Positions 2,717 to 23,220 of a stretch of 33,984 nucleotides of DNA are shown here, piece by piece. Source of the stretch: a virus. Below the pieces are notes generated by a model. That model worked only from the letters and a program-made list of their open reading frames with translations, searched no databases and was not told the origin of the DNA. Numbering within the stretch: position 1 is the stretch's first letter; the number at the start of each line of letters is the position of its first letter. The translations under genes and the position numbers were made by a program. The DNA lies in the IMG/VR virus record IMGVR_UViG_3300032770_000069, positions 1-33,984 of that record, one strand, 5' to 3'.

Positions 2717-3316
2717 ATGGCTTATCAGGCACAAACAAGTATAGACCTATCATACCAGGCTGGTGAAGATCTTTCTTCGAACCAGTGGCAGTTCGTGTAT
2801 AAAAATCCAGTGAGTAATCTGGTACGTGCATGTCCGACCAACCAGATACCGTTGGGTATCTTATCGAACGTACCGACTGCTACCATACAAGGACAGTATG
2901 CAGCGACAGTAGCAGTAGTCGGCGTCACTCGTCTCTGTGTAGGTGCCGCTTATCCGATCGACACGTATCTTGTTCCGGGCACTGACGGAACAACTTTAGG
3001 CTTAGGATACAGTGTGGCAGATGCAGGATCATCGAGCACTTATATCAGAGCGCGTATGCTTGAAGCCTCATCCAACGCATACGATATAGTATCAGTACTC
3101 TTGTGCGACGCTGGCTTTGGCACAATGGGTGCGACAGGATTGCCTGGACCGGCATCCGGTGGCGCTACTGGTGTACAAGGACTTGCTGGTGCAACAGGCG
3201 TAGGCGCACAAGGTCAACAGGGTGTTACGGGCTTGAACGGCCTCAACGGTGTAACGGGCTTGAATGGACTGCAGGGTGTAACTGGTATACAGGGTGAAAC
3301 AGGTATAGCGCCGTAA
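2717..3316 (+). CDS. Capsid decoration (cement) protein with collagen-like tail
   Basis: A 199-residue protein of two parts. Residues 1 to about 135 resemble the small beta-rich capsid cement family (DUF2190-like), with [10 protein letters not shown], a V-A-V-V-G-V-T-R strand and a closing D-I-V-S-V-L-L. Residues about 138-197 are a collagen-like tract of G-x-x triplets in which Thr often takes the third position ([18 protein letters not shown] and similar). The start follows AAGGGG with good spacing. The globular part is paralogous to the next gene, which has no collagen tract. It probably sits on the capsid outside, with short trimeric fibres projecting. SPP1 gp12 is a known precedent for a collagen-like head auxiliary protein. 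Confidence 0.75.
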
Positions 3317-3332
3317 ACATATATAGCTACGA

Positions 3333-3354
3333 CGTGCCGGGTATAGCCGGCACG
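3333..3354 (+). terminator. GC-rich hairpin between decoration genes
   Basis: CGTGCCGG (3333-3340) and CCGGCACG (3347-3354) make a perfect 8-bp stem around a 6-base loop. The bases that follow are only partly T-rich, so it is either a weak terminator or an mRNA-stabilising or processing element that lets the two decoration paralogues be expressed at different levels. Confidence 0.55.
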
Positions 3355-3400
3355 CGGCTATTTATTACATAGAGAACAAACACTTAAGAGAGGAAACATT

Positions 3401-3823
3401 ATGGGATACACTTCTCAGACTTCCATCAGTGAATCGTGGCAGGCAGGTGAAGATCTTTCTGCCAATCAATTCACATTCGTGACTTTGGATAGCACCGCAC
3501 GTGTGCAGGCTTCCAGAATCACAGATGTCCCCACAGGCGTACTCACAAATGTACCGAGTGCTTCTGCAGGCGGACAGTATGCAGCGACAGTTGATCTGGT
3601 TGGTGTGACACGTATCTGCGTCGGCGGTGTATATCCGATCGGCACAGTGTTGGTACCAGATACCGATGGTACAATCGAAGGTATCGGATACTCAGTAGCA
3701 GATGCGACATCAAACTATAAGTATGCGAGAGCTAAAACTCTACAGGCTTCAACAGCCGCGTATGATGTCGTAGCCGCGATGCTTATTGATCCGAACCCGG
3801 GTACAGATAGCACGCTTCCGTAA
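3401..3823 (+). CDS. Capsid decoration (cement) protein, collagen-free paralogue
   Basis: A 140-residue protein aligning over nearly its whole length with residues 1 to about 135 of the gene at 2717. Shared features are the G-E-D-L-S-x-N-Q-x-x-F-V start, the V-P-x-G-(V/I)-L-(T/S)-N-V-P segment, G-Q-Y-A-A-T-V, the G-V-T-R-(I/L)-C-V-G strand and the A-Y-D-(I/V)-V end. It lacks the G-x-x tail. A purine-rich ribosome site (AGAGAGGAAAC) precedes the ATG. The position directly before the major capsid gene fits an abundant head-decoration protein. Tandem duplication followed by gain or loss of the collagen tail is the likeliest history. Confidence 0.75.
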   Translation: MGYTSQTSISESWQAGEDLSANQFTFVTLDSTARVQASRITDVPTGVLTNVPSASAGGQYAATVDLVGVTRICVGGVYPIGTVLVPDTDGTIEGIGYSVADATSNYKYARAKTLQASTAAYDVVAAMLIDPNPGTDSTLP

Positions 3824-3830
3824 CATGTAC

Positions 3831-3848
3831 AGTAGTCTGTATGAAAGC
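3831..3848 (+). repeat. Copy of an 18-base element also at 658-675
   Basis: The sequence from 3831 to 3848 matches 658-675 at 17 of 18 positions (core AGTAGTCTGTAT, then T or G, then AAAGC). Both copies stand a few tens of bases upstream of a head gene start (706 and 3876). Two copies in equivalent positions suggest a regulatory role, such as a late promoter element or leader motif, but that role is inferred. Only the upstream copy is part of a hairpin. Confidence 0.5.
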
Positions 3849-3875
3849 AAACGAACTTTAAAGAGAGGATAACTT

Positions 3876-4868
3876 ATGGCACTTCCATCTACTTCGCAGA
3901 TCACAGTACAGGTTGCAAATCCGAACCTCACTGTGCAATACAAACCGGAAAATTTGATAGCTGACTCTGTGTGGCCTATCATGCCACTCACGTCGCCTTA
4001 TCAGAAGATCCTGAAGTATGTAAAGTCTAACCTGTTCCGTATCGAAGAAGGAACACTCTACCGCTCTGAAGGCGGCGAGACGAAGATCTTCGACTGGGAC
4101 ATCGAGAGTACAACCGCAGCGCCTAAGCAGATCTCTGCTGGTGAGAGCGTGCCGGTTGAAATGATCGACGTTGAGAATATGCCTGGACAGCTGCCTACTA
4201 ATTCGATCATCGATGCGCAACAGCATGCGATGGCAAGAGTAGCACTGTTCAAAGAAAAGCTTGTCAGTGACACCATCTATGGTAATCTGTGGCTCGACGG
4301 CACACTTGGTGGATCAGCACCTTCTGCCGGCAACGGTGGCTGGTCGCTGGATACAACTGCCAACAGTTTTATCAAGGACGTGTATGCCGCGAAGGCCGCG
4401 ATCCTGCACAACACCGGCGTACGTCCGAACGTGCTCGTCCTCGACGTTGATACGTTCTATGCACAGCAGTTCAATCCTATCGTATCTGATAAGATCAAGT
4501 ACACACAGCGCTCAGTACCGACTGCGGAACTGCTTGCGTCGCTGTTGCAGCTTGATGAAGTGTTGATCGGATCTTCTGTTTATACCGGCAATGCGGAAAA
4601 CAAGAAGACCAAAAATCCGGCGAATTTCAACCAGGTGTGGAACCCATCCGGAAATGGAAACGCTTATCTGTTCCACAAAGAGGCACCAGGACTGAGAGTC
4701 TTGACAGCCGGTCTGCAGTACAGACTGCCGTATCGCGGATCTATGACATACATCGAAGGATACTATGACTATCGTAAGCGTGCGAATGTTTACACGGTCA
4801 CAGAGCAAATCGATGTAGCGCCTGTAGCTACCGATATCGGCTGGACATGGACACATATTCTGAAGTAA
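3876..4868 (+). CDS. Major capsid protein
   Basis: A 330-residue protein in the normal position for the head subunit: after protease/scaffold and decoration, before the connectors. Length and composition suit an HK97-fold coat protein. The N-terminal part contains an E-loop-like stretch with charged beta segments (residues about 45-75). A central alpha-helical segment (R-V-A-L-F-K-E-K-L-V-S-D) follows, and the C-terminal strands end at I-G-W-T-W-T-H-I. The ribosome site AAAGAGAGGA is strong. A strong hairpin follows the gene, as often seen after highly expressed coat genes. The fold is inferred from context, since the sequence has no short diagnostic motif. Confidence 0.8.
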   Translation: MALPSTSQITVQVANPNLTVQYKPENLIADSVWPIMPLTSPYQKILKYVKSNLFRIEEGTLYRSEGGETKIFDWDIESTTAAPKQISAGESVPVEMIDVENMPGQLPTNSIIDAQQHAMARVALFKEKLVSDTIYGNLWLDGTLGGSAPSAGNGGWSLDTTANSFIKDVYAAKAAILHNTGVRPNVLVLDVDTFYAQQFNPIVSDKIKYTQRSVPTAELLASLLQLDEVLIGSSVYTGNAENKKTKNPANFNQVWNPSGNGNAYLFHKEAPGLRVLTAGLQYRLPYRGSMTYIEGYYDYRKRANVYTVTEQIDVAPVATDIGWTWTHILK

Positions 4869-4887
4869 GGTTCCTTGTAAATGTGAG

Positions 4888-4920
4888 AGAGTAGAGGTCG
4901 CAAGGCCTCTACTCTTTAAC
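4888..4920 (+). terminator. Hairpin after major capsid gene
   Basis: AGAGTAGAGG (4888-4897) and CCTCTACTCT (4906-4915) form a perfect 10-bp stem with an 8-base loop, followed by a short T-run (TTTAAC). It is probably a partial, rho-independent-type terminator or mRNA 3' stabiliser that separates high capsid expression from the connector and tail genes, whose first gene starts 12 bases later. Confidence 0.7.
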
Positions 4921-4931
4921 AAAGGATAAAC

Positions 4932-5414
4932 ATGAGCTACAGTACTCTGACACAACTAAAAGATTATATACCTGCGGCCACCATACAGATGCTTACAGAC
5001 GATAACAATGAGCTCAATGATATCGATATAGAGAAAGTGACATACTGTCAAGCACAAGCAGATGATTTAATTGATTCTTATTTGCGTGGAAGATATCCGG
5101 CACCGATCACAGGTCCAGTACCGGTGATGATATCGGAACTCTCGGTAAAGCTTACAGCGTTCTACTTGTATAAGAGAAGTTTGCTGTTGACGTTACCGGA
5201 AGCCATGAAAGATGACTATCAATATTGCATGAGTATCCTGCGGGATATACAGCGTGGTAGGATCAGCCCGTTTGAAATAAAAGATAATCCTACATGGTTT
5301 AAAAGCAACCATGCAGCTGGTGAGGTGACTCTCGTGAATCAGACAACGAATAACTGGCAGGATTATTTGGTAAGACCGATACCAGGGACAGCACGTCCAG
5401 GGACGGCATATTAA
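4932..5414 (+). CDS. Head-tail connector, Mu gp36-like (DUF1320)
   Basis: A 160-residue protein matching the DUF1320/gp36 pattern. It begins with Y-x-T-x-x-x-L-K-D-Y-I-P. It then has a helix with I-E-K-V-x-x-x-x-A-D-D-L-I-D-S-Y-L-R-G-R-Y-P-x-P, and a second helix with L-T-A-F-Y-L-Y-K-R. In Mu this protein lies directly after the coat and belongs to the head completion/connector set, and the same place is seen here. Its C-terminus ends in a short P/G-rich tail (I-P-G-T-A-R-P-G-T-A-Y). Start ATG 4932 has AAAGGA upstream. Function is assigned from family and synteny. Confidence 0.8.
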   Translation: MSYSTLTQLKDYIPAATIQMLTDDNNELNDIDIEKVTYCQAQADDLIDSYLRGRYPAPITGPVPVMISELSVKLTAFYLYKRSLLLTLPEAMKDDYQYCMSILRDIQRGRISPFEIKDNPTWFKSNHAAGEVTLVNQTTNNWQDYLVRPIPGTARPGTAY

Positions 5415-5417
5415 GCT

Positions 5418-5990
5418 ATGATGGCAGAGATTGTCAGAGCCATAGTCGATAAACTCAAGAAAGACGGACTTGATGTAAAAGAGTATGGTTTCAAGGACCT
5501 GATAGACCGGCGAATAAACTTACAGAGGCCGGCTGTAAACGTAGTAATAAACACTGCAGGTCATCAAAAGGTGACTCAGTATACATATAAGACGAAAGCA
5601 AACGTAAGTTTAATTGTTCTTTTCCAGATGTTAAATCAGACACCGACCGGTGACGCTTTAAGGCGTGAAGGTGTTTATAAGATCATAGAAGGTATCGAGC
5701 AGTCGTTATTACTACAGAAGCTTGGATTACCATTAGAGAATGGATTTTATCCGGAAGGTTTCAGGAACATAACGACAAGTGCGTTAGCAGCGGCGATGTA
5801 TCAGTTGTATGAGTTAAGGTTTTGGTGTGCATACAATACAACTTATAATGATGATCCTACTGATGATGGCACACTGACATCGATACTCGCTCAGTATTAT
5901 CTGCAACCGCGTGACTATACCGGTATGCAGGGCGTGACAGGACCAGAGGCAAGTGACTATATAGGTTTAACAGGAATTTCGAATATATAA
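5418..5990 (+). CDS. Mu gp37-like tail-completion protein (DUF1834) with a short collagen-like end
   Basis: A 190-residue protein three bases after the gp36-like gene. Residues 1 to about 140 suit the DUF1834/gp37 family, with a helix containing L-R-R-E-G-V-Y-K-I-I-E-G-I, then K-L-G-L-P-L, F-R-N-I-T-T, and a strand Y-E-L-R-F-W-C. In Mu-like phages this protein precedes the sheath gene and is a connector or tail-terminator component. The last 20 or so residues include G-M-Q-G-V-T-G-P-E-A and G-L-T-G-I-S, fragments of the collagen-like pattern found elsewhere in this genome and not expected in gp37. ATG 5418 or the adjacent ATG 5421 could be the start. Confidence 0.65.
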   Translation: MMAEIVRAIVDKLKKDGLDVKEYGFKDLIDRRINLQRPAVNVVINTAGHQKVTQYTYKTKANVSLIVLFQMLNQTPTGDALRREGVYKIIEGIEQSLLLQKLGLPLENGFYPEGFRNITTSALAAAMYQLYELRFWCAYNTTYNDDPTDDGTLTSILAQYYLQPRDYTGMQGVTGPEASDYIGLTGISNI

Positions 5991-6004
5991 CGAAGGGATA
6001 ACAA

Positions 6005-7477: not shown

Positions 7478-7497
7478 CCAAAGAAAGGTTTTGAAAT

Positions 7498-7875
7498 ATG
7501 GCTAACACTTATATCATCCGTGCAGAAGTAGACATGAATGGTCAGCCTGTGACTGATTTTAAATCATTCACAGAAACAGCACACGTACTCAGCAAGGCCG
7601 TTCATCTGATGCATAAGACTGGGAATGCAGCCATGACTCGTCGGTTTGCATTTACTCTGGATTATGTGCTGCCTACAACTAATCCTATTGACTGGGAAAG
7701 TTTTGTAGGTACCGGATCTACTGGTACAGCTTCTATCGTATATGATGGTGGTCTTGAGAAAGACTTTGGTGGCGTAAGCGTCATCGAGGTCGGTGAGGCT
7801 ACTACAGACGGCGAGAATGAAACTGTACAGAAGATATCGTTCATGGCAGAGTCGAAGAACGGGGCCGTTGAATAA
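7498..7875 (+). CDS. Tail tube protein
   Basis: A 125-residue beta-rich protein immediately after the sheath gene, the standard place and size for the Mu-type tube subunit that stacks into the inner tail channel. N-terminal strands (Y-I-I-R-A-E-V-D-M-N-G) are followed by a helix and then alternating strands, ending with K-I-S-F-M-A-E-S. AAAGAAAGG precedes the ATG. Its last base is shared with the first base of the chaperone gene. The assignment is mainly by synteny and size. Confidence 0.75.
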   Translation: MANTYIIRAEVDMNGQPVTDFKSFTETAHVLSKAVHLMHKTGNAAMTRRFAFTLDYVLPTTNPIDWESFVGTGSTGTASIVYDGGLEKDFGGVSVIEVGEATTDGENETVQKISFMAESKNGAVE

Positions 7876-8387
7876 TGTCTTCGCTACTTGAAAAGCTAAA
7901 GCTCGGTACACTCAATACGAAGCTAATGAAATGGCCTGGGACGGACCAGGCCATACTCTTACGAGTACTTTCCATGCAGGAAAGACAGGATGCTACGTTT
8001 GCGACCGAGCGCCTTTTCAAGTCTCAGAAGATAGATGTCAACATGGTCTCGGCTAATGAATATGATAGTGAGTACATCACGCAGATACTTTTCAGAGCTA
8101 TACGTAATCCTGAAAAGCCTGACGAACAAGTATGTGAGAACATTACCGAATTTCGTAAGGCTCTTACGTTAAAAGAGCGTCAGGTGTTATCTGAAGAGTA
8201 TATCGCGTTTGAGGAAGAGTGTTCACCTGCAATAGAGAACCAAACCCAGGATCAATGGGATGCGCTGGTCTCTAGTTTAAAAAAAAACCCAACGGAAACG
8301 CTTGGGAAACTTACGTCTATCGCCACGCTGAAAAAATTGCTGCTTATTACGGTAAGCCAGCCTGTGAGCTTACCGAAGGTCAACTGA
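7875..8387 (+). CDS. Tail assembly chaperone, zero-frame product
   Basis: A 170-residue protein between the tube and tape-measure genes, the place of Mu gp41 and lambda gpG. It is helical and charged (S-M-Q-E-R-Q-D-A-T-F-A-T-E-R-L and so on), with many Arg/Glu. In the zero frame it ends at 8387 with a low-complexity tail (K-K-L-L-L-I-T-V-S). A second, better-looking reading of the 3' end is available by a -1 shift at 8276-8282, described separately. In such phages the short form is the major product and chaperones the tape measure during tail assembly. Confidence 0.8.
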   Translation: MSSLLEKLKLGTLNTKLMKWPGTDQAILLRVLSMQERQDATFATERLFKSQKIDVNMVSANEYDSEYITQILFRAIRNPEKPDEQVCENITEFRKALTLKERQVLSEEYIAFEEECSPAIENQTQDQWDALVSSLKKNPTETLGKLTSIATLKKLLLITVSQPVSLPKVN

Positions 8388-8476: not shown

Positions 8477-8477
8477 T

Positions 8478-10031: not shown

Positions 10032-10032
10032 T

Positions 10033-11373
10033 ATGCCATCTCAATATAACGCACAACTTGACAGTTGGTTACTCAATATCCTGGATATATCAGACGATAT
10101 ACGTCCAAATATAGCCAAATATGAGTTCGTGTTCCGTGATGGCGCTATCCTTGATAATATGGGTAACAGTGCACGCGTTATCAAGTTCAAAACATACTGG
10201 TTCGGTACACAGGCTAACCTGGATGTCGTACAACGCTCACCAACGTATCTACAGCATAAAGCATTCCTGGCAGATATCACAGACTCTACTAAAGCATATC
10301 ATACATTGACTCATCCAAAATACGGTGTAATAAAAGGTCAGATCGGTAACTCTATAGGCATATACCACGATGATACACAGAACTATGTGACTATAGATAT
10401 AGAGTTTATTGAGGATGGTATCATATTAAATGGCAGTAAAATAAACAACTTTGCCATAGATAAAGCTGTAAATACAAGTCAGCTGTCTCTTTTGAACGGC
10501 CAATTAGCTAAAACGAGCTCTACACTCACATCCAGCGGTTTATCTGAAGTACTTGGTAAAGCCATAGACTTTAGTAAGACTATACAGTCACAACTATCCG
10601 GTATATCTACTAAAGCTTTAAATTTCTGTAAAGAAGCTGATAAAGTCACTGGTACTATAAGTAGCTTCTTGAACAATGTTACACAGCCTATCAATACACT
10701 TACTAATGCCGTAAACTACGCATCCGACGTACCATCTAAGATAGTACAGACGGTGCAGAAGGCTTGTGATCGCATCATAGCTAACGAGCAGGCTATATCA
10801 AAAGCGCCGGCTACAGCAGTAAATAACATGGTATCATCTGTACAGAGTCTTGCTACAAGTATCACCGGCAGTCTGACATCCGGCAATCAGTATAACACAT
10901 TATGGTCTAACGTGATATTGAGTATAGGTGCTGGTGCGGTTGCACAGGCATCCGCGGCTGCTATGATGCAAGATCAGACTAATCGTGAAAACCAAAAGGC
11001 TATAGAGTCTTTAAAGACGTTTGATGATAATGGACAGCGTATAAGCAGCACGGTAAGCGTCATAGATACTATGTCTCAGACGGACCTTGAGAATATGCTA
11101 TACGTACAAAGAGGTCTGGCTCAAGATGCTATAGAGGTGGACCGTGACCAACCTGACCTCAAAAACCAGTGTAGTCTACTTATACGGTTCCTGGATAGTA
11201 TAAAGCTTTTGAAGACGCAGATAGTGACCATGAAGGTCACCAATATGCCTATACATACACTATGTTTACAGCTTGGACTAAGCTATCAGGCGGCGGATCG
11301 GATACTTAAATTAAATCCGCAGATCACCAATCCGACTTTCGTGGACGGTGTCATCAAGGTATATACGCAATGA
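10033..11373 (+). CDS. Tail/DNA-circularisation protein N (Mu gp43-like)
   Basis: A 446-residue protein two bases after the tape measure. Residues about 1-110 resemble the DNA_circ_N domain of Mu gpN, a baseplate/tail-tip protein: Y-E-F-V-F-R-D-G-A, then T-Y-W-F-G-T-Q-A, then L-T-H-P-K-Y-G, then V-T-I-D-I-E-F-I-E-D-G. The middle is a long Ser/Thr-rich helical segment. The C-terminus (L-C-L-Q-L-G-L-S-Y-Q-A-A-D-R-I-L-K-L-N-P) reads like a LysM-type element, and many gpN homologues end the same way. It overlaps the next gene by four bases (ATGA). Confidence 0.8.
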   Translation: MPSQYNAQLDSWLLNILDISDDIRPNIAKYEFVFRDGAILDNMGNSARVIKFKTYWFGTQANLDVVQRSPTYLQHKAFLADITDSTKAYHTLTHPKYGVIKGQIGNSIGIYHDDTQNYVTIDIEFIEDGIILNGSKINNFAIDKAVNTSQLSLLNGQLAKTSSTLTSSGLSEVLGKAIDFSKTIQSQLSGISTKALNFCKEADKVTGTISSFLNNVTQPINTLTNAVNYASDVPSKIVQTVQKACDRIIANEQAISKAPATAVNNMVSSVQSLATSITGSLTSGNQYNTLWSNVILSIGAGAVAQASAAAMMQDQTNRENQKAIESLKTFDDNGQRISSTVSVIDTMSQTDLENMLYVQRGLAQDAIEVDRDQPDLKNQCSLLIRFLDSIKLLKTQIVTMKVTNMPIHTLCLQLGLSYQAADRILKLNPQITNPTFVDGVIKVYTQ

Positions 11374-12662
11374 ATAACGTACAACTATTACTAAACGGCG
11401 TAGAAGCCAACATCATATCATATTCTTTCAGGAAGAATATCTTTCATGGTGCGGCTACGCTTGAGGTAAGCGTATCGCCTTTGGATACTTATACGCTATT
11501 TGATAAGCCGGTCATAGCGGATTTATACATATCGCCAAGTAACACCGCATCAAACGGTGCACATGTATTCCACGGCTATGTGGATACTATAAAGAAAAGC
11601 TACGATAAACACGAGAAAAAACAGACTATCACCGCACGTGATGTGTGTGCTATCTATATAGATAACAAGATACCGATCATAGAAAATTTTCAAGGTATAG
11701 ACTTTACAGAAATAGTAGATACTATCACAAACTACTTTCCGATAAGCACCTTGAATGACGAACCTGTAGTGCCACCATTTGATCTACCATTTCCGAGTAT
11801 ACTTTTTTCTACTGAAGGTCTGGCTACCATAAACACCAAGTTTCTTAAAACCAAATATATAAGTGGTCATCCTGGTGAAAGTTATTATGACTTTCTTATG
11901 CGTATTCTTAATCCGTATGACCTTATCATGTACGTGCCACGTGATGCCTGGTATATAGAAAGCTATGCAGACACGTTACAGGTAGAGGTGCTTGGTGGTA
12001 CTGCAGAAAGAAGCTATAACAATAATGTATATGTAGGACCACAAAGGTTTACGTTTTCTACAGACTATATATCATCCGTGAATGCGGTCATCTCTTGTAA
12101 GTATACAGAAGATATCACTAAGTACTATCCGTATGTAAAAGCAGTAGGACAGACTGATGGACCTCAGATAGACTATACGGTAGGCGGTGTGTCTAATAAA
12201 AAGAACTATAACGAACTCAAAGCCGAACGTCTTGACAAGTACTGGCGAAGTCTTAACAAGTGTCGTGTAGAAAATTTAAAAGAGATAGATCAGGCTGCGT
12301 GGCAAGGTGATCAGGTGGAAAACATGCTTGATACGATATTTAAAGAAATGACTCGTAATACGCAGACCACACAGTATACGCTTGCCGGTCATATGTTTAC
12401 GCCTAATGTCACAGCAGGTACCGCACAAATACCGTTCAACATAAATGATGAGGTATTTGTGAAGGATAGCTTTTTAGGCATAGAAGGTTCATATCTGATA
12501 GTAGAGCTCGAAATGAAAGGTGATAAACAATCCGGTCAGACTACTACAGTAGATCTGGCTTTGCTTGGTACGTCCGTGAATGGTATCCTTGGTAATTCTC
12601 AGCAGCTTGTACAGCTGGCACGTACCAACGAGTTACAGCCGGCAACACAGAAGGCGTTATAA
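11370..12662 (+). CDS. Baseplate hub protein (Mu gpP/gp44-like)
   Basis: A 430-residue hub protein of the late-control-D/gp44 type. It starts V-Q-L-L-L-N-G-V-E-A-N-I-I-S-Y-S. An early domain follows with the strand V-F-H-G-Y-V-D-T-I-K-K-S and then T-I-T-A-R-D-V-C-A, a signature of hub domain I. Later come a cell-puncturing-hub-like region with Y-Y-D-F-L-M-R and, near the end, F-N-I-N-D-E-V-F-V-K-D and S-Y-L-I-V-E-L-E-M. In Mu this trimeric hub links the tube to the spike. The stop shares its final base with the start of the spike gene, indicating tight coupling. Confidence 0.85.
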   Translation: MNNVQLLLNGVEANIISYSFRKNIFHGAATLEVSVSPLDTYTLFDKPVIADLYISPSNTASNGAHVFHGYVDTIKKSYDKHEKKQTITARDVCAIYIDNKIPIIENFQGIDFTEIVDTITNYFPISTLNDEPVVPPFDLPFPSILFSTEGLATINTKFLKTKYISGHPGESYYDFLMRILNPYDLIMYVPRDAWYIESYADTLQVEVLGGTAERSYNNNVYVGPQRFTFSTDYISSVNAVISCKYTEDITKYYPYVKAVGQTDGPQIDYTVGGVSNKKNYNELKAERLDKYWRSLNKCRVENLKEIDQAAWQGDQVENMLDTIFKEMTRNTQTTQYTLAGHMFTPNVTAGTAQIPFNINDEVFVKDSFLGIEGSYLIVELEMKGDKQSGQTTTVDLALLGTSVNGILGNSQQLVQLARTNELQPATQKAL

Positions 12663-13195
12663 TGTTTTTAAGAGGCTTTTTTAAAAGTATAAAAGAGGGC
12701 GTCATCCGTAAGGCTACTATCACCGGTCGTGTTGATGAGACCAAAGTAGTATCTCACTATCAGCATTATGGTTTTAGTAGTATGCCGGCATCAGATCCTA
12801 TGATGGACTGTGTATGTCTTGAGGACGGTAATAATACAGCTATAGTAGCTGAGGATAATGGAAATTTAAGACCACCGCTCACTACAGGCCAGGTATGTTT
12901 ATATGTGGATACTAATAACTACATACTTATGGATGCAGACGGTAGTCTTACTATAAAGACTAAAGATAAGCCGGTTACGATAGATAGCGGATCTGGTGAC
13001 GTGACGGTAAAGACCACCGGCTCACTAAAATTAGGTGATGCGTCTGGTACGCAAGAACTTATGACTAAAGCCTATGCAGATGCGATAGTGCAGTATTTTG
13101 CACAGATCGTGACTGGCTTTTTATCAGTACCATATACATTGCCGGCATTTGTGGCACCGACGACCGGCTTAACGAGTACGACAGAGGCTAAGTGA
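12662..13195 (+). CDS. Baseplate spike/puncturing protein (Mu gp45-like, gpV type)
   Basis: A 177-residue protein. An OB-fold-like N-terminal part begins with K-A-T-I-T-G-R-V-D and contains V-C-L-E-D-G-N-N-T-A-I-V-A-E-D. A region of short repeated strands follows (S-L-T-I-K-T-K-D-K-P-V-T-I, then D-V-T-V-K-T-T-G-S-L-K-L-G), which would form the triple-stranded beta-helix spike. A helical C-terminal end (T-K-A-Y-A-D-A-I-V-Q-Y-F) matches gp45 proteins. The spike tip normally contacts and pierces the outer membrane. No His-x-His iron-binding tip motif was seen at the end. Confidence 0.85.
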   Translation: MFLRGFFKSIKEGVIRKATITGRVDETKVVSHYQHYGFSSMPASDPMMDCVCLEDGNNTAIVAEDNGNLRPPLTTGQVCLYVDTNNYILMDADGSLTIKTKDKPVTIDSGSGDVTVKTTGSLKLGDASGTQELMTKAYADAIVQYFAQIVTGFLSVPYTLPAFVAPTTGLTSTTEAK

Positions 13196-13196
13196 T

Positions 13197-13547
13197 ATGG
13201 ACTATACACTAAAACCAAACGGTTACAATATACTGATGACGTTTGATAAGAACTCAAGCGTAGTCACTGAGATAGCGGCTACGCTGGCTACTACGCAAGG
13301 TACGTTCTTTCAGAGACCGGACTTTGGTATACCGACCATCACGAAGCTTACTACAGATCGGATAAATTTATTTCAACAGCAAGTATTGAATGCTTTACAG
13401 TATCTAATCGCGATAGGCAGAGCTTCTACGATAGACGTTCTGTGTGAGAAAGACATCACAGTAGTCGGACGGCTGAATATAAAAGTGACAGCGACAGAGC
13501 CGTCTGGACTAATCGTAACATATGAAACATTTCAAAGAGTGGTGTGA
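13197..13547 (+). CDS. Baseplate wedge protein, gp46/gpW (T4 gp25-like)
   Basis: A 116-residue wedge protein, one base after the spike gene's stop. It has the small gp25-like pattern: an early strand, then F-F-Q-R-P-D-F-G-I-P (compare the R-P-x-F-G segment of this family), a helix with F-Q-Q-Q-V-L-N-A-L-Q-Y-L, and terminal strands G-R-L-N-I-K-V-T-A-T. It helps initiate sheath polymerisation. Order spike-wedge-J is exactly the Mu order. Its stop overlaps a possible GTG start of the next gene. Confidence 0.8.
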   Translation: MDYTLKPNGYNILMTFDKNSSVVTEIAATLATTQGTFFQRPDFGIPTITKLTTDRINLFQQQVLNALQYLIAIGRASTIDVLCEKDITVVGRLNIKVTATEPSGLIVTYETFQRVV

Positions 13548-14605
13548 CTATGAGCGGACCTTATTCAAAAGACTTTGATAGTATCCTGAGCGATCAGTTG
13601 ACGGACTATTCCAACTTAGATCCTGCACCGGATACATCGATCGGATCAATGGTATACGTCGGCTGTGCTACACATTCATCCGCGCTATGGGGTGCCTATA
13701 AGTATCAAGACTTCATAAGCACCGAAATATTTCCGGACACCTGCAGCACGACAGCGCTTAATCACTTCGGATCAGACTACGGTATACCGAGACTGACCGG
13801 CGAAAACGATAATGACTATGCAGGCCGTATCCTCTCTTTTATGAGACAGCCGCCTGCTGGTGGCACCGCGACAGACTACCAAAACTGGGCGTTAGCCACA
13901 CCAGCCACACCAGCAAATTTAACAGAAACTTTTGTACCGTCCGCTGTCGTCGGTGGTGGTATCACTACTACACAAGAATGGCAAAACGGATCTATAGTAC
14001 AGTTTTCTACTACTAATACGCTGCCTTCACCGCTGGTAACCGCCACTAACTACGTGCTGGCAGATATCGGACCGACGTCTGTACAAGTATACGATAGCAC
14101 GTTCACGACGTTGATACCATTGACGGACGGCGGTATCGGTGTACATACGATCACACCACAAAGTACTACACTATATACTGTGGCTTATGCACGTGCGTCC
14201 AGTCCATCGCCAGGCGCAGTCGTAGTGGTCATCCTGCCTAACGATCCGTCTATCATTGGTGGCGGTGCTATGCAGACACTGGCAAATGCGGCGTTTACAT
14301 ATATCGACGCACGGCGTCCTGTAACAGCCAGCTTGACACAAGTGGTCGGTGCTGTACCGGTCACTGCAAACATAAATATCACGGTGAAACCGATCACATC
14401 AGATGTCACGCAGATGCAGTCTGATATCACAGCGTATATAAACACTTTGGCACCTGGCGATACATTATACGTCAGTAAACTATCAAGCCTGTGCATACAG
14501 GACGGGGCATACGATGCCGTGGTCACGCTACCGGCATCAGACATCGTGCCGACTATCTATCAGGTAGTAAGACCAGGTGTCATCACAGTAACAGCATCAG
14601 CATAA
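13544..14605 (+). CDS. Baseplate wedge protein J (Mu gp47-like)
   Basis: A 353-residue Baseplate_J-type protein. The N-terminal region has D-P-A-P-D-T-S-I-G-S-M-V-Y-V, then a helix and F-P-D-T-C-S-T-T-A-L-N-H-F-G-x-D-Y-G-I-P-R. The last is the conserved 'Lxxhaxxyg' type segment. The next part is A-G-R-I-L-S-F-M-R-Q-P-P-A-G-G-T. The C-terminal half has A-R-R-P-V-T-A-S, a hallmark of J proteins, and strands ending V-R-P-G-V-I-T-V. The start is uncertain: GTG 13544 overlaps the previous stop as GTGA, while ATG 13550 lies two bases after it with a slightly better-spaced purine stretch. Confidence 0.85.
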   Translation: MTMSGPYSKDFDSILSDQLTDYSNLDPAPDTSIGSMVYVGCATHSSALWGAYKYQDFISTEIFPDTCSTTALNHFGSDYGIPRLTGENDNDYAGRILSFMRQPPAGGTATDYQNWALATPATPANLTETFVPSAVVGGGITTTQEWQNGSIVQFSTTNTLPSPLVTATNYVLADIGPTSVQVYDSTFTTLIPLTDGGIGVHTITPQSTTLYTVAYARASSPSPGAVVVVILPNDPSIIGGGAMQTLANAAFTYIDARRPVTASLTQVVGAVPVTANINITVKPITSDVTQMQSDITAYINTLAPGDTLYVSKLSSLCIQDGAYDAVVTLPASDIVPTIYQVVRPGVITVTASA

Positions 14606-14617
14606 AGGGGATATACC

Positions 14618-15313
14618 ATGAGTACAACGTATCGCAATTACACACTCAATGCAGCACACGATGATCCGTGGGCACCTACTGAGATCCAGGTATTGAAAGA
14701 CATCATCGATAAACTGCCAGTTAAATTTACCACGCTGGTCGGATCTGAGCACCGGCATAGCTTGCTGGTCGGTGGTGGTGGACCGGACGGATCTGGTACT
14801 GCTATCAACTGCTCGCCGCTTAGTGTTGGTGAGATCGATCTCACAGCTAAAACGTTAGTCATGACTGGTACGGCACCGCAGATCAACCTGGCGGACAACG
14901 CAGTGGCAACCGGTGTCATCGCTCAGAATGGACCGTCATTGACTTTAAGTCCGGCTGCAGCGTCTACAAATACTATCAGTATGAACCCTGCTGGTGTGGT
15001 CATCAGTACAGACACGAAAATTACAGGTCCTCAGATCTCATTGGATGGTGGTGGTGCAACACAAGGCGTCATACTACAGTCAAATCAAGTTATGACTATC
15101 ACGTGTGCAACGACCATACTCACAGTGGATGGTGACGCTGGTAAAATTGCAGCGACAGCAACGAACGGTTTTGTGACCGGTAAAATATCTACAGATAATA
15201 GTAATTTCTGGCAACTTGGACCGGCTTCAGGATCTGCACCGACACCTGATACGGCAGTGCTGATCCAGATCGGTGCGACATATTATAAACTTGCAGCAGA
15301 AACGGTAGTCTGA
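14618..15313 (+). CDS. Unknown beta-rich baseplate/fibre-associated protein
   Basis: A 231-residue protein sitting between gp47-like and gp48-like genes, where Mu has none. The first 45 residues are helical (L-K-D-I-I-D-K-L-P) and lead to S-E-H-R-H-S-L-L-V-G-G-G-G-P-D-G-S-G-T. The H-x-H followed by Gly-rich residues recalls trimeric fibre domains that bind metal. The rest is Thr/Ala/Ile-rich with many short strands (T-L-V-M-T-G-T-A-P-Q-I-N-L and similar), suggesting a beta-helical or stacked-strand shaft. The AAGGGGA ribosome site is good. A role as a baseplate-attached short fibre or adaptor is inferred. Confidence 0.55.
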   Translation: MSTTYRNYTLNAAHDDPWAPTEIQVLKDIIDKLPVKFTTLVGSEHRHSLLVGGGGPDGSGTAINCSPLSVGEIDLTAKTLVMTGTAPQINLADNAVATGVIAQNGPSLTLSPAAASTNTISMNPAGVVISTDTKITGPQISLDGGGATQGVILQSNQVMTITCATTILTVDGDAGKIAATATNGFVTGKISTDNSNFWQLGPASGSAPTPDTAVLIQIGATYYKLAAETVV

Positions 15314-15315
15314 TT

Positions 15316-15894
15316 ATGAGTTACGGTGACGGTGGATATGGTGACTACGGTTATGGTGATGCACCGTATGCTGGTGTCACCGGCATGCACTATCAGGCTT
15401 TAAAAAAGCTGTGGCCTATCAAAAACGTAGAAGGCGCACTGGATGATGATCTATCTATCCAAGGCAAGTACCTGGATCAGTTATATGCACAAGCACAGCA
15501 GTTATATACCGAATTCTTTCCGTCTACTACTACGCTTTTACTATCAGACTGGGAACGTGTATACGGTCTACAGCCGACTGGCACTGTAGATCAGAGACGT
15601 GCTGCTGTCATCGCTAAGATGAGAGTGCTTGTTAATAAAGATGGCAGACTTACTAAAGCATATTATTTAAGTATAGCGTCTGCTTTAGGACATCCTGAAG
15701 CTTATATCGTTGAAGGTTCTACACTTTTGTTTATAGTAGGTGTGACCATACTGCCGCACGTGCTTTACAGTGATACAGAAAAGTGGGTATGGGAATTACA
15801 TGCGACTGTAGCAGTAGAGGATAGACCGATATGGGAAGCGACTTTTAATCCATTGAAACCAGCGTTCACGCAATTGAACTTTATTTATTTCTAA
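15316..15894 (+). CDS. Baseplate protein gp48-like (DUF2313/YmfQ)
   Basis: A 192-residue protein. Residues about 25-190 follow the DUF2313 pattern: Y-Q-A-L-K-K-L-W-P, then L-L-L-S-D-W-E-R-V-Y-G-L, then V-D-Q-R-R-A-A-V-I-A-K-M-R, then L-T-K-A-Y-Y-L-S-I-A-S-A-L-G-H, and F-N-P-L-K-P-A-F-T near the end. Mu gp48 is a baseplate component made just before the fibre gene, as here. The first 20 residues are an unusual Gly/Tyr/Asp-rich extension (Y-G-D-G-G-Y-G-D-Y-G-Y-G-D) not typical of the family. It starts two bases after the previous stop. Confidence 0.8.
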   Translation: MSYGDGGYGDYGYGDAPYAGVTGMHYQALKKLWPIKNVEGALDDDLSIQGKYLDQLYAQAQQLYTEFFPSTTTLLLSDWERVYGLQPTGTVDQRRAAVIAKMRVLVNKDGRLTKAYYLSIASALGHPEAYIVEGSTLLFIVGVTILPHVLYSDTEKWVWELHATVAVEDRPIWEATFNPLKPAFTQLNFIYF

Positions 15895-15905
15895 AAGGAT
15901 AAGTT

Positions 15906-16919: not shown

Positions 16920-17341
16920 TTTTAACGTCGCCTGTTAGATATACCATATTTGATTTGGAAGTACCGTATAATCGTGTACCGCTGATACAGATCTATAGTG
17001 ATAGTATGGCGTACGGTACTGTCGAAATGAAATTGCCATTGACAGCTGCGGCGGTCACAGCACAGGTATATCTGGTGACGGCACCGACGTCGTCTGAGGA
17101 TCGTTGGATACGTGCGAGTGCAGATATTTATCCAGGTAATCCTGACGTATTATCGTGGCAGACTACATTATTAGATGACGGATACTATCAGATATCCTGG
17201 CAGTTTGCACCGACTGCTATCACAGCATTAGATGGTCAGAATTATAGCATAGAATTTTTTGTGAATTATACACCGTCAGCGACGGTGGCACAGTCAGCGC
17301 CAAAGATCATAGTAAAAATTCATGATGAGATCATAACATGA
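16916..17341 (+). CDS. Small fibre-associated beta protein, paralogue of the next gene's N-terminal domain
   Basis: A 141-residue protein coupled to genes on both sides by four-base overlaps. It aligns with residues 1 to about 140 of the protein starting at 17338. Shared features are Y-(T/Y)-x-(F/M)-x-(L/V)-x-V-P, A-Y-G-(T/S)-V-(E/L)-(M/L)-K-L-P-L-T, A-P-T-S-S-E-D-R-W, D-G-Y-Y-(Q/R)-I-(S/D)-W-(Q/E)-F, and A-P-K-I-I-V-(K/E)-I at the end. It therefore represents a stand-alone version of that domain, probably an immunoglobulin-like or jelly-roll beta sandwich. It may be an adaptor holding the collagen-like fibre, or may co-assemble with it. No known family recognised. Confidence 0.55.
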   Translation: MILTSPVRYTIFDLEVPYNRVPLIQIYSDSMAYGTVEMKLPLTAAAVTAQVYLVTAPTSSEDRWIRASADIYPGNPDVLSWQTTLLDDGYYQISWQFAPTAITALDGQNYSIEFFVNYTPSATVAQSAPKIIVKIHDEIIT

Positions 17342-19158
17342 GCACGTTCAACCAAATTTACTACACTGTTATGTCAGTTGCGGTACCGACTTCACGGCTA
17401 CCGATCGCTACTATATCGTCTGATCAAGTAGCCTATGGATCAGTACTACTTAAACTACCGTTGACGTCTTGTAGTGTGTCCGCATCAGTATATAGACTTG
17501 CACCGCCGACTTCATCTGAAGACAGGTGGGGACGACTACAGCCGGAACTTCTACACACATATCCGGATGCACTTGCTTTTACTACGACATTACAGTCTGA
17601 TGGCTATTATCGGATCGACTGGGAATTCCAGCCGGATGCGATACCGTCTGTTTTCACTGGACAGTATTTTAGTATTGAGTTCGCCGTCAATGCAAGCATG
17701 ACCGCCACCGTGGCATCGTATGCACCTAAAATTATTGTTGAGATCAAAAACGACATCGATTTTACTGGCGTGACCGGCTATGCAGGCATCACCGGTTTAT
17801 CATCTGTGTATATGGGTGAGACGGGTGCGGCGGGTAATACTGGTCTACAAGGACCGACAGGTGTACAAGGACCACAAGGCCAGACCGGTGTGATCGGTTT
17901 TGGTGGTACAACAGGATCACCGGGTGAGCAAGGTATAACAGGCTATCAAGGTTTAACCGGATACAAAGGTATCACAGGTATACCGGGCCTGCCTGGTTTG
18001 GGCGCGACAGGCGTACAAGGTAATACCGGTATACAAGGTAAAGGTGAGACTGGGCTGCAAGGCCTTACTGGTTTAAGTGGTGTTACGGGTGTCGTAGGCG
18101 TAACCGGTACCGGACCGCAAGGTGTCACTGGTTTTCAAGGATCTACCGGTTTAGAAAATTTTTATGAACAGGCAAACTACACAGGTCCGTCGTTGCAACC
18201 GGCTGTGATGTGGCAGACGGTAGACGACACACAGTTTATACGAGTACCGGATCAGGATGCTTGGATACAAGTCAGCTCAGCGATGGGCCAAGGTGATACG
18301 GGTGTACGCGGACCTACCGGCTATATGGGCGTAACAGGTACTGTAGGTGCCGGCGTCACTGGTTTAGTTGGTGTGACTGGTTTTCAAGGCGTGACCGGAC
18401 TGCAAAATTTTTACAGTGCGACATATAGTACGCCTGCATTAGTACCAGCACATTTATTTGAGACTAATGATGAAGCGACGTTTTTCTGGGTTACGTCCAT
18501 CAACGCATGGGTGCAGTCGTCGGCGGGCGCTATGCAAGGCGGCACTGGTTATCGTGGTGCTACAGGTGTACAAGGATGTACTGGCGTACAGGGTGTGACC
18601 GGTACTGCAGGTCTGACCGGCTTATCTGGTGTGACTGGTCTGAGAGGACTGACTGGCGTACAAGGTATACAAGGACAAACAGGTATAGGTGCACAAGGTA
18701 CACAAGGATCAACTGGTGTTCAAGGTCAAGGCGTGACCGGGTTGATCGGTGTAACCGGCTTTCTTGGTCTCACAGGTATACAAGGTCAGACTGGTGTACA
18801 AGGATCAACTGGTGCTGTAGGTGCAGGAAGCACAGGACTTATTGGTATCACAAAAGATTCATTTAACGGTTACTATGAAAATCCTGTAAACAAAGTTTAT
18901 ACAATTGATAGCTACGCGCCTGCCAGCTATACCATAAATAGTCTATCTGTAAAGTGTTATACAGGAAGTGGTAACTGTGATGTATTACGTAATGGTATTG
19001 GTATCACTGGTCTATTTGGTCTGGCGTTTTCAAAAACACGTTTAAATGCTACAGCTACAGGAAATATTTTGATAAGTGCTGGTGATACTATAACTATGAA
19101 TCTTTATAATGTAAATACTGTTTTAAATTACGAATATACTTTGGCTATATCGAGATAA
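17338..19158 (+). CDS. Collagen-like tail fibre with repeated inserted modules
   Basis: A 606-residue fibre. Residues 1 to about 140 are the beta domain duplicated from the previous gene. From about 144 the chain is collagen-like G-x-x repeats with frequent Thr (G-V-T-G, G-L-T-G). Two related modules of about 50 residues interrupt it, starting L-E-N-F-Y at 272 and L-Q-N-F-Y at 355. Each has P-x-L-x-P-A, T-x-D-(D/E) and A-W-(I/V)-Q. A further repeat block leads to a C-terminal beta domain (about 506-606, ending with A-G-D-T-I-T-M-N-L). Collagen shaft plus beta knobs is typical of phage receptor-binding fibres. Several triplet blocks share DNA with the gene at 20632, suggesting exchange. Confidence 0.75.
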   Translation: MSTFNQIYYTVMSVAVPTSRLPIATISSDQVAYGSVLLKLPLTSCSVSASVYRLAPPTSSEDRWGRLQPELLHTYPDALAFTTTLQSDGYYRIDWEFQPDAIPSVFTGQYFSIEFAVNASMTATVASYAPKIIVEIKNDIDFTGVTGYAGITGLSSVYMGETGAAGNTGLQGPTGVQGPQGQTGVIGFGGTTGSPGEQGITGYQGLTGYKGITGIPGLPGLGATGVQGNTGIQGKGETGLQGLTGLSGVTGVVGVTGTGPQGVTGFQGSTGLENFYEQANYTGPSLQPAVMWQTVDDTQFIRVPDQDAWIQVSSAMGQGDTGVRGPTGYMGVTGTVGAGVTGLVGVTGFQGVTGLQNFYSATYSTPALVPAHLFETNDEATFFWVTSINAWVQSSAGAMQGGTGYRGATGVQGCTGVQGVTGTAGLTGLSGVTGLRGLTGVQGIQGQTGIGAQGTQGSTGVQGQGVTGLIGVTGFLGLTGIQGQTGVQGSTGAVGAGSTGLIGITKDSFNGYYENPVNKVYTIDSYAPASYTINSLSVKCYTGSGNCDVLRNGIGITGLFGLAFSKTRLNATATGNILISAGDTITMNLYNVNTVLNYEYTLAISR

Positions 19159-19160
19159 AT

Positions 19161-19922
19161 ATGCCACAACTTTTACACGAACCATATAGTCATATGATAC
19201 TTGTACATCCAGGAAAGTATCCTGATACCGGTACATTAACTGACTATAACTTTGGTACTATACATTCTACACAGTTTAGCAGGTATCATAGCACTGTGAT
19301 AGATCCTATATCGTACGGTACACCAGGACCTTTTTTAGTTATAGATGCTTTTCAGAATTACAACACCTATCATCTTAATCTACAAAAAATAAATGATGAG
19401 TGTTATTTGGTGGCAGCAGCAGACTCTTTATTGGACTATGACTTTGAAAAAAGATTTACTATAGATTTTTGGTTTAAAATAACTTCTTTATCTTTGCAGC
19501 CAGGAAATACTTTTTACTATTATTATTTTGAAAATGGTGCCAATGGCTTTTATGCAGCGCTTACAGTAAAAGACGGTTCTAATTATTATGTAACTACATA
19601 CTGTGATGATGCACAGACTGGTACTAAAACTACACAGTTTACTGTGCCAAACACTATAGCATGGCACCATTATGCGGTGATACGTGATAGCGATACTACC
19701 ATAAATTCATATTTAGACGGTACCGTAGGATCTCAAGCAATAGTATTAGACTCTACATATCATTTTGCATCTGTAAACAAGTCGATATGTAAAATAAAAG
19801 GCACAGCTAATCCAGACGTAAGCCAAGAGATAGCCGATCTGGATATGTCTGAGTTTGCAGTATCGTCTATGTCATTGTGGTCGGGTAATTTTACACCACC
19901 TGTTTTTCCGTATTTGCATTAA
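19161..19922 (+). CDS. LamG/concanavalin-like jelly-roll protein, probable receptor-binding
   Basis: A 253-residue protein three bases after the collagen fibre. The central part suits a LamG-like jelly roll: F-T-I-D-F-W-F-K-I, then I-A-W-H-H-Y-A-V-I-R-D, then I-N-S-Y-L-D-G-T-V-G. The W-H-H-(Y/F)-A sequence followed by a strand and Y-L-D-G is the recurrent laminin-G_3 signature. Such domains commonly bind carbohydrate and occur in phage adsorption proteins. It is richer in A+T and aromatic residues than its neighbours. Location in the fibre cluster supports a role in host binding; the ligand is unknown. Confidence 0.7.
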   Translation: MPQLLHEPYSHMILVHPGKYPDTGTLTDYNFGTIHSTQFSRYHSTVIDPISYGTPGPFLVIDAFQNYNTYHLNLQKINDECYLVAAADSLLDYDFEKRFTIDFWFKITSLSLQPGNTFYYYYFENGANGFYAALTVKDGSNYYVTTYCDDAQTGTKTTQFTVPNTIAWHHYAVIRDSDTTINSYLDGTVGSQAIVLDSTYHFASVNKSICKIKGTANPDVSQEIADLDMSEFAVSSMSLWSGNFTPPVFPYLH

Positions 19923-19932
19923 GGATCTAAAA

Positions 19933-20631
19933 ATGTCATTTCCACTATCACCGTCTGATCAGCAATATTATACAAATGCGCTCGGTACACAATATCAGTA
20001 TAGTGCATCTAAAAACGCATGGCTGATAGTCACTCAGAATTTAGGCGTGACCGGCGTACAAGGACCAACAGGCATTGTTGGCCTTACAGGTATACAAGGA
20101 CAAACAGGCGTACAAGGACAAACAGGCGTACAGGGCGTGACCGGGCTGATCGGTGTCACGGGTATACAAGGTATAGCAGGCACATCTGCTGAACAATTTT
20201 CTGGACTGACTGGTAATCAAGCAGCTACAACATCTGTAAATACACTGGGAAGCATACAGTGGTCCGCATCAGCTAATACGAACTATTATTGGGAATTTAA
20301 TGGTCTGTATAGTGGTGTGACCGGAACAGGATCGCCAGTATCTTGGCTCGGTTTTACTGGGCCGGCGTCACCATCGGGATGGACACAGTGCTTATCCTTT
20401 TTTCCAATTGGTACTACAAGCATATCAAATGTAAATGTATCTACTACGTACGGTGCGTTGATGGGCGGATCAATAACCTATAACGGTAATGGTCCGGGTA
20501 ATCGTGTATGGTGTACCGGTTACATGTTCAACGGATCCAGTGCTGGTACTGTATATGCAATGGTAAAAATTGATAGTGGTGCGGCGACATGGTATAAGGG
20601 AACTTTTTTGCGTGTAACAAGGATACCGTAA
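19933..20631 (+). CDS. Short collagen-like tail fibre
   Basis: A 232-residue fibre. I place the start at ATG 19933, ten bases after the previous stop, with AAGGA upstream. The open frame extends further up, but that part lies inside the LamG gene. Residues 1-37 (M-S-F-P-L-S-P and so on, ending with K-N-A-W-L-I-V) match the start of the next gene. Residues about 38-77 are G-x-x repeats (G-V-T-G-V-Q-G-P-T-G type). The rest is a beta-rich tip with W-T-Q-C-L-S-F-F-P-I-G and a closing Y-K-G-T-F-L-R-V. It is likely a smaller relative of the 862-residue fibre with a different tip. Confidence 0.75.
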   Translation: MSFPLSPSDQQYYTNALGTQYQYSASKNAWLIVTQNLGVTGVQGPTGIVGLTGIQGQTGVQGQTGVQGVTGLIGVTGIQGIAGTSAEQFSGLTGNQAATTSVNTLGSIQWSASANTNYYWEFNGLYSGVTGTGSPVSWLGFTGPASPSGWTQCLSFFPIGTTSISNVNVSTTYGALMGGSITYNGNGPGNRVWCTGYMFNGSSAGTVYAMVKIDSGAATWYKGTFLRVTRIP

Positions 20632-23220
20632 ATGTCATTTCCAAACAATCCAGTAAATAACCAGCAGTACCAAAATACTCTTGGCACTATATATGTGTAC
20701 GACGCCAGCAGAAATGCGTGGCTTTTAAAAACTCAACTTTTAGGCGTCACCGGTCCTGGCGGTGTGACCGGTACTGTAGGTGCCGTAGGTGCTACAGGTG
20801 CACAAGGTCAAGGCGTAACAGGTTTAAAAGGTCTTACTGGTTTACAAGGCTTGACTGGACTGCAAGGTCTTACCGGCTTACAAGGTTTAACAGGTCTAAA
20901 CGGTATAACTGGTCTGATAGGACCTACAGGTATAGCCGGTACGTCAGGCTCTACCGGACTTATAGGTCTTACAGGATTACAAGGATCTACTGGACTACAG
21001 GGTCAAACAGGCGTACAAGGCCTAATAGGCTTCACAGGACCGCAGGGACAGACCGGCCTGGTAGGTGACCAAGGATCTACCGGCAGCGTAGGTTTAACTG
21101 GTCTACAAGGCCTTACTGGTTTAAGTGGTATCACAGGTATCGATGGACCTACAGGATATCAAGGACTTACAGGTTTAGTAGGATCTACCGGCGTACAAGG
21201 CGTCACAGGTTTTTTAGGTCTCACCGGTTTAGTCGGTGTGACCGGACTTCAAGGCTCTACAGGCGTACAAGGTCTACAAGGCGTCACTGGCTTGCAGGGT
21301 CTGACTGGACTTGACGGTATCCAAGGCTATACTGGTCTTCAAGGTCTCACTGGTCTTCAAGGTTTGACCGGCTTACAAGGTATCACAGGTTTAAGTGGCG
21401 TGACCGGGCTGATCGGTGTCACCGGTTTTAGAGGTCTTACGGGTGTACAAGGTACTACAGGCGTCCAAGGAATAACAGGCCTTCAAGGTTTAACAGGTAT
21501 ACAAGGTCTTGGTGGTTTCGGTACGCCATACTATTTCCATCAAGAAGCCTCTGGTGTAAGTGGATCATTCGGACCGTTTGAGAGCTTATTGCGTACGCCT
21601 GCTAATGATCCAGAAACGGTAGATACTGTTTCTGGTGTAGTAAATAACGGTACTACCGGTTTACTGTTTGGTGGTCATGGTTACATCACGGTAGCTGGTG
21701 ATCCGTCTCTGACCAGCATACCACCTGGTATATGGACTTTTAATATTTATGCTACATCCTCGAGCACTTTTGCCGGAAGAAATCCACGGATACACGCAGA
21801 AATTTTAAAATATAACGTCGGCGGATCTACGGTTAGTCTATTTATAACAGAAGATTCTGATCTGATTGCTGCAGGTGTGACCGGTACCGCAATATTGTAT
21901 CCGATCGTATACACACAGACGACGGCTATAACACTAACTGCTACAGATCGTTTAGTGTGTAGGCTGTGGGGTACTAACTCTGATAACACGGCAGTAGATA
22001 TTACGTATTGGTACGAGGGTACAACTCATACTTCGAATATTATTTCTACGATCGGCACAGGTAATCAAGGCGTTACCGGCTTACAAGGTATAACAGGACT
22101 AAGTGGTATCACAGGTTTCCAAGGACCTACCGGTATGATAGGCCTGACCGGCGTGCAAGGCACAACAGGTCTGCAAGGTCTTACCGGACTACAAGGTTTA
22201 ACGGGTCTGGATGGTGTGACCGGTGTACAAGGCTCTACCGGACTGCAAGGTTTAACAGGACCTCAAGGCCAGACAGGCATTGTAGGCTCTACGGGTATAG
22301 ACGGAAGCCAGGGTGAGACCGGGGTACAAGGACTTACCGGCGTACAAGGCACCACAGGATCTACAGGACTTACTGGTTTACAAGGACTTACAGGCCTTGT
22401 AGGCGTGACCGGCGTCGATGGTATCCAGGGGGAAAAAGGCGATCAGGGCGATCCTGGTGAGACTGGTGTCGACGGTGTCAAAGGTGATACAGGTGTAGGT
22501 GATCAAGGCTCTACTGGACTACAAGGTACCGCGGGTCTTACAGGCTTACAGGGTGAGACCGGGCTGGGTATTACAGGACCTCAAGGTTCTACCGGTATAG
22601 GCTATGTAGGCAGTGACGGTGTTACAGGCTTACAAGGTATAACCGGATTACAAGGATTAACTGGTCTTGCTGGTGTGACAGGTTTACAAGGTACTGCCGG
22701 CACCAACGGAAACGACGGCGTCACTGGTCAAACCGGTGTGACTGGTTTAAGCGGATCGAATGGCACCAATGGTACGACAGGTTTACAAGGTATCACAGGA
22801 CTGATTGGTGTAACAGGTCTGGCAGGATCACAAGGCCAAACAGGTTTACAAGGTATAACCGGTGTAGGCACTGCAGGATCACAAGGTGCAACAGGCGTAC
22901 TTAGTTACGGTCTATACGATGCTGGAAACTTTAACGGCTCTGGTATAAACTTTAATTTGGCGAATGGTTATAGCCAAAAATGCTCTTTGGTTTCAGGATC
23001 TACAGGTGGCTACTTTTTTGTAAATGGCGGTGTAGCCGGCAGCAAATATAGCATACAAATAAATTATGGTGTGAATGCGTCAATAAAAGGTTTTACCGGT
23101 ATAAAATGGACACCGGCAACACCGGTGCTTTCTGCAAGTACATCTACTACAGATCTTATACATTTGTATTGTGATGGATCTGTGTATTATGGTATGGCCT
23201 CTCTATACTACGCGTACTAA
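20632..23220 (+). CDS. Giant collagen-like tail fibre (862 aa)
   Basis: Begins directly after the previous stop (TAAATG). Residues 1-37 are the shared N-terminal module ending R-N-A-W-L-L-K-T-Q. Two long collagen-like tracts follow, about residues 38-296 and 475-757. They are almost all G-x-x triplets with Thr, Gln or occasional Pro (G-L-T-G-L-Q, G-V-T-G). Between them lies a globular beta domain (about 297-474) with I-P-P-G-I-W-T-F-N-I-Y, T-D-R-L-V-C-R-L-W and Y-W-Y-E-G-T-T-H. Related domains occur inside other phage collagen-like fibres. The C-terminal domain (about 758-862) has G-G-V-A-G-S-K-Y and T-T-D-L-I-H-L-Y-C-D-G-S-V-Y-Y-G, a common fibre-tip type. Codons of the repeats are strongly varied. 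Confidence 0.85.
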   Translation: MSFPNNPVNNQQYQNTLGTIYVYDASRNAWLLKTQLLGVTGPGGVTGTVGAVGATGAQGQGVTGLKGLTGLQGLTGLQGLTGLQGLTGLNGITGLIGPTGIAGTSGSTGLIGLTGLQGSTGLQGQTGVQGLIGFTGPQGQTGLVGDQGSTGSVGLTGLQGLTGLSGITGIDGPTGYQGLTGLVGSTGVQGVTGFLGLTGLVGVTGLQGSTGVQGLQGVTGLQGLTGLDGIQGYTGLQGLTGLQGLTGLQGITGLSGVTGLIGVTGFRGLTGVQGTTGVQGITGLQGLTGIQGLGGFGTPYYFHQEASGVSGSFGPFESLLRTPANDPETVDTVSGVVNNGTTGLLFGGHGYITVAGDPSLTSIPPGIWTFNIYATSSSTFAGRNPRIHAEILKYNVGGSTVSLFITEDSDLIAAGVTGTAILYPIVYTQTTAITLTATDRLVCRLWGTNSDNTAVDITYWYEGTTHTSNIISTIGTGNQGVTGLQGITGLSGITGFQGPTGMIGLTGVQGTTGLQGLTGLQGLTGLDGVTGVQGSTGLQGLTGPQGQTGIVGSTGIDGSQGETGVQGLTGVQGTTGSTGLTGLQGLTGLVGVTGVDGIQGEKGDQGDPGETGVDGVKGDTGVGDQGSTGLQGTAGLTGLQGETGLGITGPQGSTGIGYVGSDGVTGLQGITGLQGLTGLAGVTGLQGTAGTNGNDGVTGQTGVTGLSGSNGTNGTTGLQGITGLIGVTGLAGSQGQTGLQGITGVGTAGSQGATGVLSYGLYDAGNFNGSGINFNLANGYSQKCSLVSGSTGGYFFVNGGVAGSKYSIQINYGVNASIKGFTGIKWTPATPVLSASTSTTDLIHLYCDGSVYYGMASLYYAY

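Follow-up and report, generated by a model that had tools for sequence, protein, structure and literature searches.

The virus described here probably combines three tail fibres built on collagen-like stalks with a collagen-like tail on a head protein (2717), which would project triple-helical fibrils from the capsid among plain subunits encoded by the neighbouring gene (3401). The window is the whole stretch of DNA that was analysed, the 33,984 bases of the environmental virus record IMGVR_UViG_3300032770_000069 (G000). It represents a Mu-like, contractile-tailed phage, in which a Mu-like gene order fills the left two thirds and the tract-bearing genes belong to the structural region (Table 1). 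No relative that could provide a host link was found when a genome collection was scanned with the major capsid protein (MCP) and the sheath. In the fibres, the tracts would form long stalks linking an anchor or cap to distal domains, and the C-terminal tail of 2717 would form fibrils standing off the capsid, intermixed with plain 3401 subunits. The triple helix would be built from three chains held in register by oligomeric end domains; weak adhesion by the head fibrils and receptor reach by the fibres are the probable uses. At the collagen rise of 0.286 nm per residue, the computed lengths are ~18 nm for the tail of 2717 and ~71 and ~80 nm for the two tracts of 20632. For these proteins we infer presence in the virion, trimerisation, the triple helix and adhesion.

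Table 1. Genes of the window referred to in the text, with the internal layout of the tract-bearing proteins (proteins are named by the first position of their gene).
Feature	Position	Strand	Details
Head protease	706
Decoration-type gene pair	2717, 3401		Between protease and MCP
Collagen-tailed decoration-type protein, 199 aa	2717..3316	+	PF01391; beyond shuffles; domain residues 1-134, then 20 G-x-y triplets (3119-3310) up to the C-terminus
Plain decoration-type protein, 140 aa, no tract	3401..3823	+	phrog_673, 1.7e-4
MCP	3876..4868	+	phrog_1005, 2.5e-31
gp36-like	4932
Mu gp37-like	5418..5990	+	phrog_490, 3.3e-14; no collagen tract
Contractile sheath	6005
Tape measure	8478
Baseplate hub and wedge genes	10033-15316		Fibres come next
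Plain fibre-anchor copy, 141 aa	16916..17341	+	50% identical to the N-terminus of 17338
Collagen-like fibre	17338..19158	+	PF01391, 4.7e-26; 83 triplets in three tracts: anchor 17338-17760; tracts 17767-18156 (39 triplets), 18292-18405 (12), 18547-18852 (32); C-terminal domain ~18853-19158
Short collagen-like fibre	19933..20631	+	PF01391, 3e-7; beyond shuffles; N-terminal cap, 16 triplets (20044-20187), C-terminal domain
Long collagen-like fibre	20632..23220	+	PF01391, 2e-76; beyond shuffles; 173 triplets in two tracts: cap; 82 triplets (20761-21504); middle domain (21505-22059); 91 triplets (22060-22902); C-terminal domain
GT2 glycosyltransferase genes	31006-31650, 32508-33299	+

The PF01391 model gave 17 matches across the frames of 2717, 17338, 19933 and 20632. 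Its curated cut-off was exceeded by 17338, 19933 and 20632 in both searches, and 2717 was borderline, with 27.6 bits (over the cut-off) in one search and 27.0 bits (just under 27.2) in the other. Each protein was also submitted to 1000 composition-preserving shuffles, in which the longest tract was scored. The longest tracts of the four proteins (20, 39, 16 and 91 triplets, respectively) were reached in 0 of 1000 shuffles each, with shuffle maxima of 7, 11, 7 and 10 triplets. The tract pair of 20632 is near the size originally noted for the largest fibre, namely two tracts of about 85-95 triplets each.

Over 292 triplets, the Y position is occupied by Thr (44.9%), Gln (27.7%) and little Pro (2%), in agreement with the originally noted prevalence of G-x-T and G-x-Q, and the X position by L/I/V/M/F/Y (68%), Asp/Glu (4.8%) and Pro (4.1%), with neither Lys nor Arg; charged residues amount to 0.11 per triplet. 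A triple helix is the best reading of the tracts, given their three-residue period over more than 80 triplets and the trimeric state of phage fibres and of several decoration proteins. The tracts had been likened to BclA, the collagen of the Bacillus exosporium, and this comparison holds for the Y position, which is Thr-rich in both, but fails for the X position, as Gram-positive collagens are similar to the window at Y and contain 31% Pro in X (PMC3368898 Table 4). The BclA-type combination of a Thr-rich Y with ~31% Pro in X was thus not found in the window, and the stability of BclA-type collagens is not transferable to its tracts. As Pro and charge are scarce, the usual stabilisers of the triple helix are weak, and a stable helix is plausible but unproven for these sequences.

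The same low Pro and charge contents and the largely hydrophobic X position would also suit tracts that do not wind into trimers and serve as spacers, be it as flexible or polyproline-II-like stalks or as bundled G-x-x strands, and a rough estimate from host-guest propensities places the tracts ~15 degrees below Gly-Pro-Hyp. This alternative is nevertheless unlikely, as the strict three-residue period is kept across 80-90 triplets with few breaks, the Y position is rich in Thr and Gln like that of Gram-positive collagens, and Scl2.28, which is low in proline yet rich in charges, melts at 35.6 C (PMC8968730). Read as triple helices, natural G-[LVI]-T/Q tracts nearly devoid of proline or charge would probe the true needs of the collagen fold.

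The two decoration-type proteins are 56% identical over their common domain and only 2717 has a tract, which indicates that one member of the pair acquired the tail. A profile of the decoration domain aligned (hhalign 96.6%, E 6e-10) to actinophage genes and a gene of Pseudomonas phage KPP23, each located directly upstream of the MCP gene. Direct sequence links are weak and consist of the phrog_673 match (Table 1), of the category head and packaging, and a tblastn match to ValentiniPuff (E 0.1). A decoration-type gene adjoins the MCP gene in the head modules of the window, of its relatives G001, G003, L146 and L152 and of the phage records. The putative identity of the decoration domain thus rests on position and homology. 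For this domain, AlphaFold supplied with three sequences gave a mean pLDDT of 32 and no usable model, and no match was found between the domain and solved structures. A strong RNA hairpin (3330-3360; z-score of -4.2 for a 75-base stretch) lies between the tailed and the plain gene and may set their relative expression.

The label of phrog_673 is head scaffolding protein, and 2717 might accordingly be a non-virion protein, e.g. a scaffold or an assembly factor, whose tail does not decorate the head. We consider this quite improbable, as a homologous product, KPP23_086, was detected in KPP23 virions by mass spectrometry (PMC4031330) and the homologue in Ottawa is annotated as head fiber protein. 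As far as the head is concerned, a virion "coated with triple-helical fibres", as originally proposed, can reasonably be inferred.

Collagen on a phage head is not new, since gp12 of SPP1 is a trimeric collagen-like capsid accessory protein, which is located at hexamer centres and is non-essential (PMC6813328, PMC6316719). Compared by description, gp12 and 2717 are both small proteins with a short collagen-like tract and a gene beside that of the MCP, and a place on the capsid surface like that of gp12 is predicted for 2717 from gene position and homologues. However, gp12 has 64 aa, a mid-protein tract and probable terminal helices, whereas 2717 has its tract at the C-terminus, behind a decoration-type domain, and is paired with a plain paralogue. 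Ottawa gp99, KPP23_086 and ValentiniPuff gp55 show profile-level homology and the same position upstream of the MCP as here, but a single decoration copy without collagen tail was seen at these loci. The decoration proteins of TW1 and of the contractile-tailed phage XM1 (gp53; PMC10457771) were likened to 2717 and 3401 by role only, and no sequence match between them and the window proteins was found.

With regard to fibres, the phage collagen EPclA is trimeric and contains a triple-helical domain (PMC3368898), so that, together with SPP1 gp12, collagen is already known on both phage heads and fibres. EPclA and EPclB, which are side-tail proteins encoded by prophages of E. coli O157:H7, contain a collagen stalk between fibre domains, as in the window, but the X position of these EHEC phage collagens contains 48% Pro and many charged residues (PMC3368898 Table 4), whereas that of the window has 4% Pro and almost no charge. 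Collagen-like stalks in three fibres are an ordinary, common style. A decoration protein that has been duplicated and has gained an optional collagen tail is less common and is new as an arrangement; in the open-access papers searched, no decoration gene pair of which one copy is collagen-tailed was found to be described.

The closer relatives G003 (MCP 84% identical), G006/L152 (MCP 76% identical) and G005/L146 each contain one plain decoration gene in the head module, and the tailed copy is absent from these modules. In G001 (MCP 37% identical), a plain copy is found upstream of the MCP gene and a tailed copy, with 37 triplets followed by a 42-residue end, downstream. The plain-plus-tailed pair is therefore present in two of five distinct head modules (window and G001), in differing arrangements. 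The claim that a head-type protein and fibres share one repeat style was correct, and G001 shows the same pattern. The tailed copy of the window is nearest to plain copies (56% identity to its own and 53% to those of close relatives, vs 30% to the tailed copy of G001), and sequence identity thus favours separate duplications in the window and G001. In AU tests in which the tailed copies were held together, a single origin was not rejected (p 0.10-0.21), and the trees were weakly supported. We propose only tentatively, and with considerable doubt, that collagen tails were gained repeatedly and independently on spare decoration copies in this Mu-like group, giving a mixed coat, and that the fibrils are stable triple helices almost without proline or charge. 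Duplication of a decoration gene, with one copy tailed and the plain copy kept, would be a simple route to head fibrils.

Sugars added to the tract threonines by phage glycosyltransferases might stabilise the tracts, as suggested for BclA; Thr makes up 45% of Y, and two GT2 genes are present near the right end of the window. This explanation appears rather improbable, because PF00535 (E 0.001) matched no more than 13 of 50 records that show the tract style, mostly the larger ones among them, and had no match in G001 and G003. A general link between glycosyltransferases and tracts is thus unsupported, and glycosylation by phage enzymes was rejected as a general rule. An open-ended frame at 33296 is GT9-like by eye, yet has no match to PF01075.

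Five tract-bearing proteins had originally been noted, of which 2717, 17338, 19933 and 20632 were retained and the gp37-like protein (5418) was not. The latter contains only GMQ-GVT-GPE, three consecutive triplets that were equalled in 67 of 1000 shuffles. Its tail GYTGMAGVTGPEMSD is also present in L146, in which the decoration gene is plain; YTGMQGVTGPEASD of the tail is matched by YTGMAGVTGPEMSD of L146, and the gp37 ends of the remaining relatives differ and do not have this tail. The shuffles and the occurrence in L146 rule out 5418 as a fifth collagen protein, and its C-terminal stretch is best described as a gp37 tail and not a collagen tract. Chance, i.e. glycine-rich sequence without shared cause, suits this run and perhaps also five successive triplets in the sheath, which were equalled in 4 of 1000 shuffles, but as an explanation of the style it is negligible and already refuted for the other four genes, the main tracts of which lie beyond every shuffle and differ in synonymous codons along their length. 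A collagen-like gene of G001 (L116:3203-4357) is placed between gp37 and the sheath, so that collagen near the neck genes occurs in the group, though absent there in the window. The ORF that follows it (4363-4944) bears a WYIDADV motif.

The low-proline G-x-T/G-x-Q style was searched in environmental virus DNA with the pattern G-hydrophobic-T, G-hydrophobic-Q, G-hydrophobic-T and was found in at least 119 stretches (viral contigs), a sample picked by pattern, the figures of which describe the style and do not measure its frequency among viruses. Among the matches listed, the pooled composition (6% Pro in X; 48% Gln and 34% Thr in Y) is similar to that of the window. Several such proteins in one phage had been considered unusual, but a mechanical ORF count revealed two or more collagen-like ORFs in 32 of the 118 collagen-bearing loci among the matches listed, with a maximum of five. 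One locus of an 84 kb virus record (L043:3119-4447) encodes two neighbouring small proteins, each with a tract of 12-13 triplets, whose starts of ~148 residues differ from each other.

Among the fibres, the middle domain of 20632 matches L118 (1.2e-52), and homologues of the anchor of 17338, each followed by collagen, are present in G001, G002 (two) and G003. The AlphaFold model of this anchor domain (pLDDT 59) was too poor for a fold search. The anchor pair 16916/17338 echoes the plain-plus-tailed pattern of the decoration pair. Two Laminin_G_3 (concanavalin-like) proteins, encoded at 19161-19922 and 23230-23865 amid the collagen fibre genes, are possibly carbohydrate-binding parts. Outside the structural genes, a KilAC-type antirepressor and a Prim-Pol/helicase protein are encoded at 25555-28434 (-). 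A terminase small subunit-like gene (151-555, -; phrog_4044, 1.2e-4) lies on the strand opposite to the head genes and is resembled by a frame of G001 (L141:193-543).
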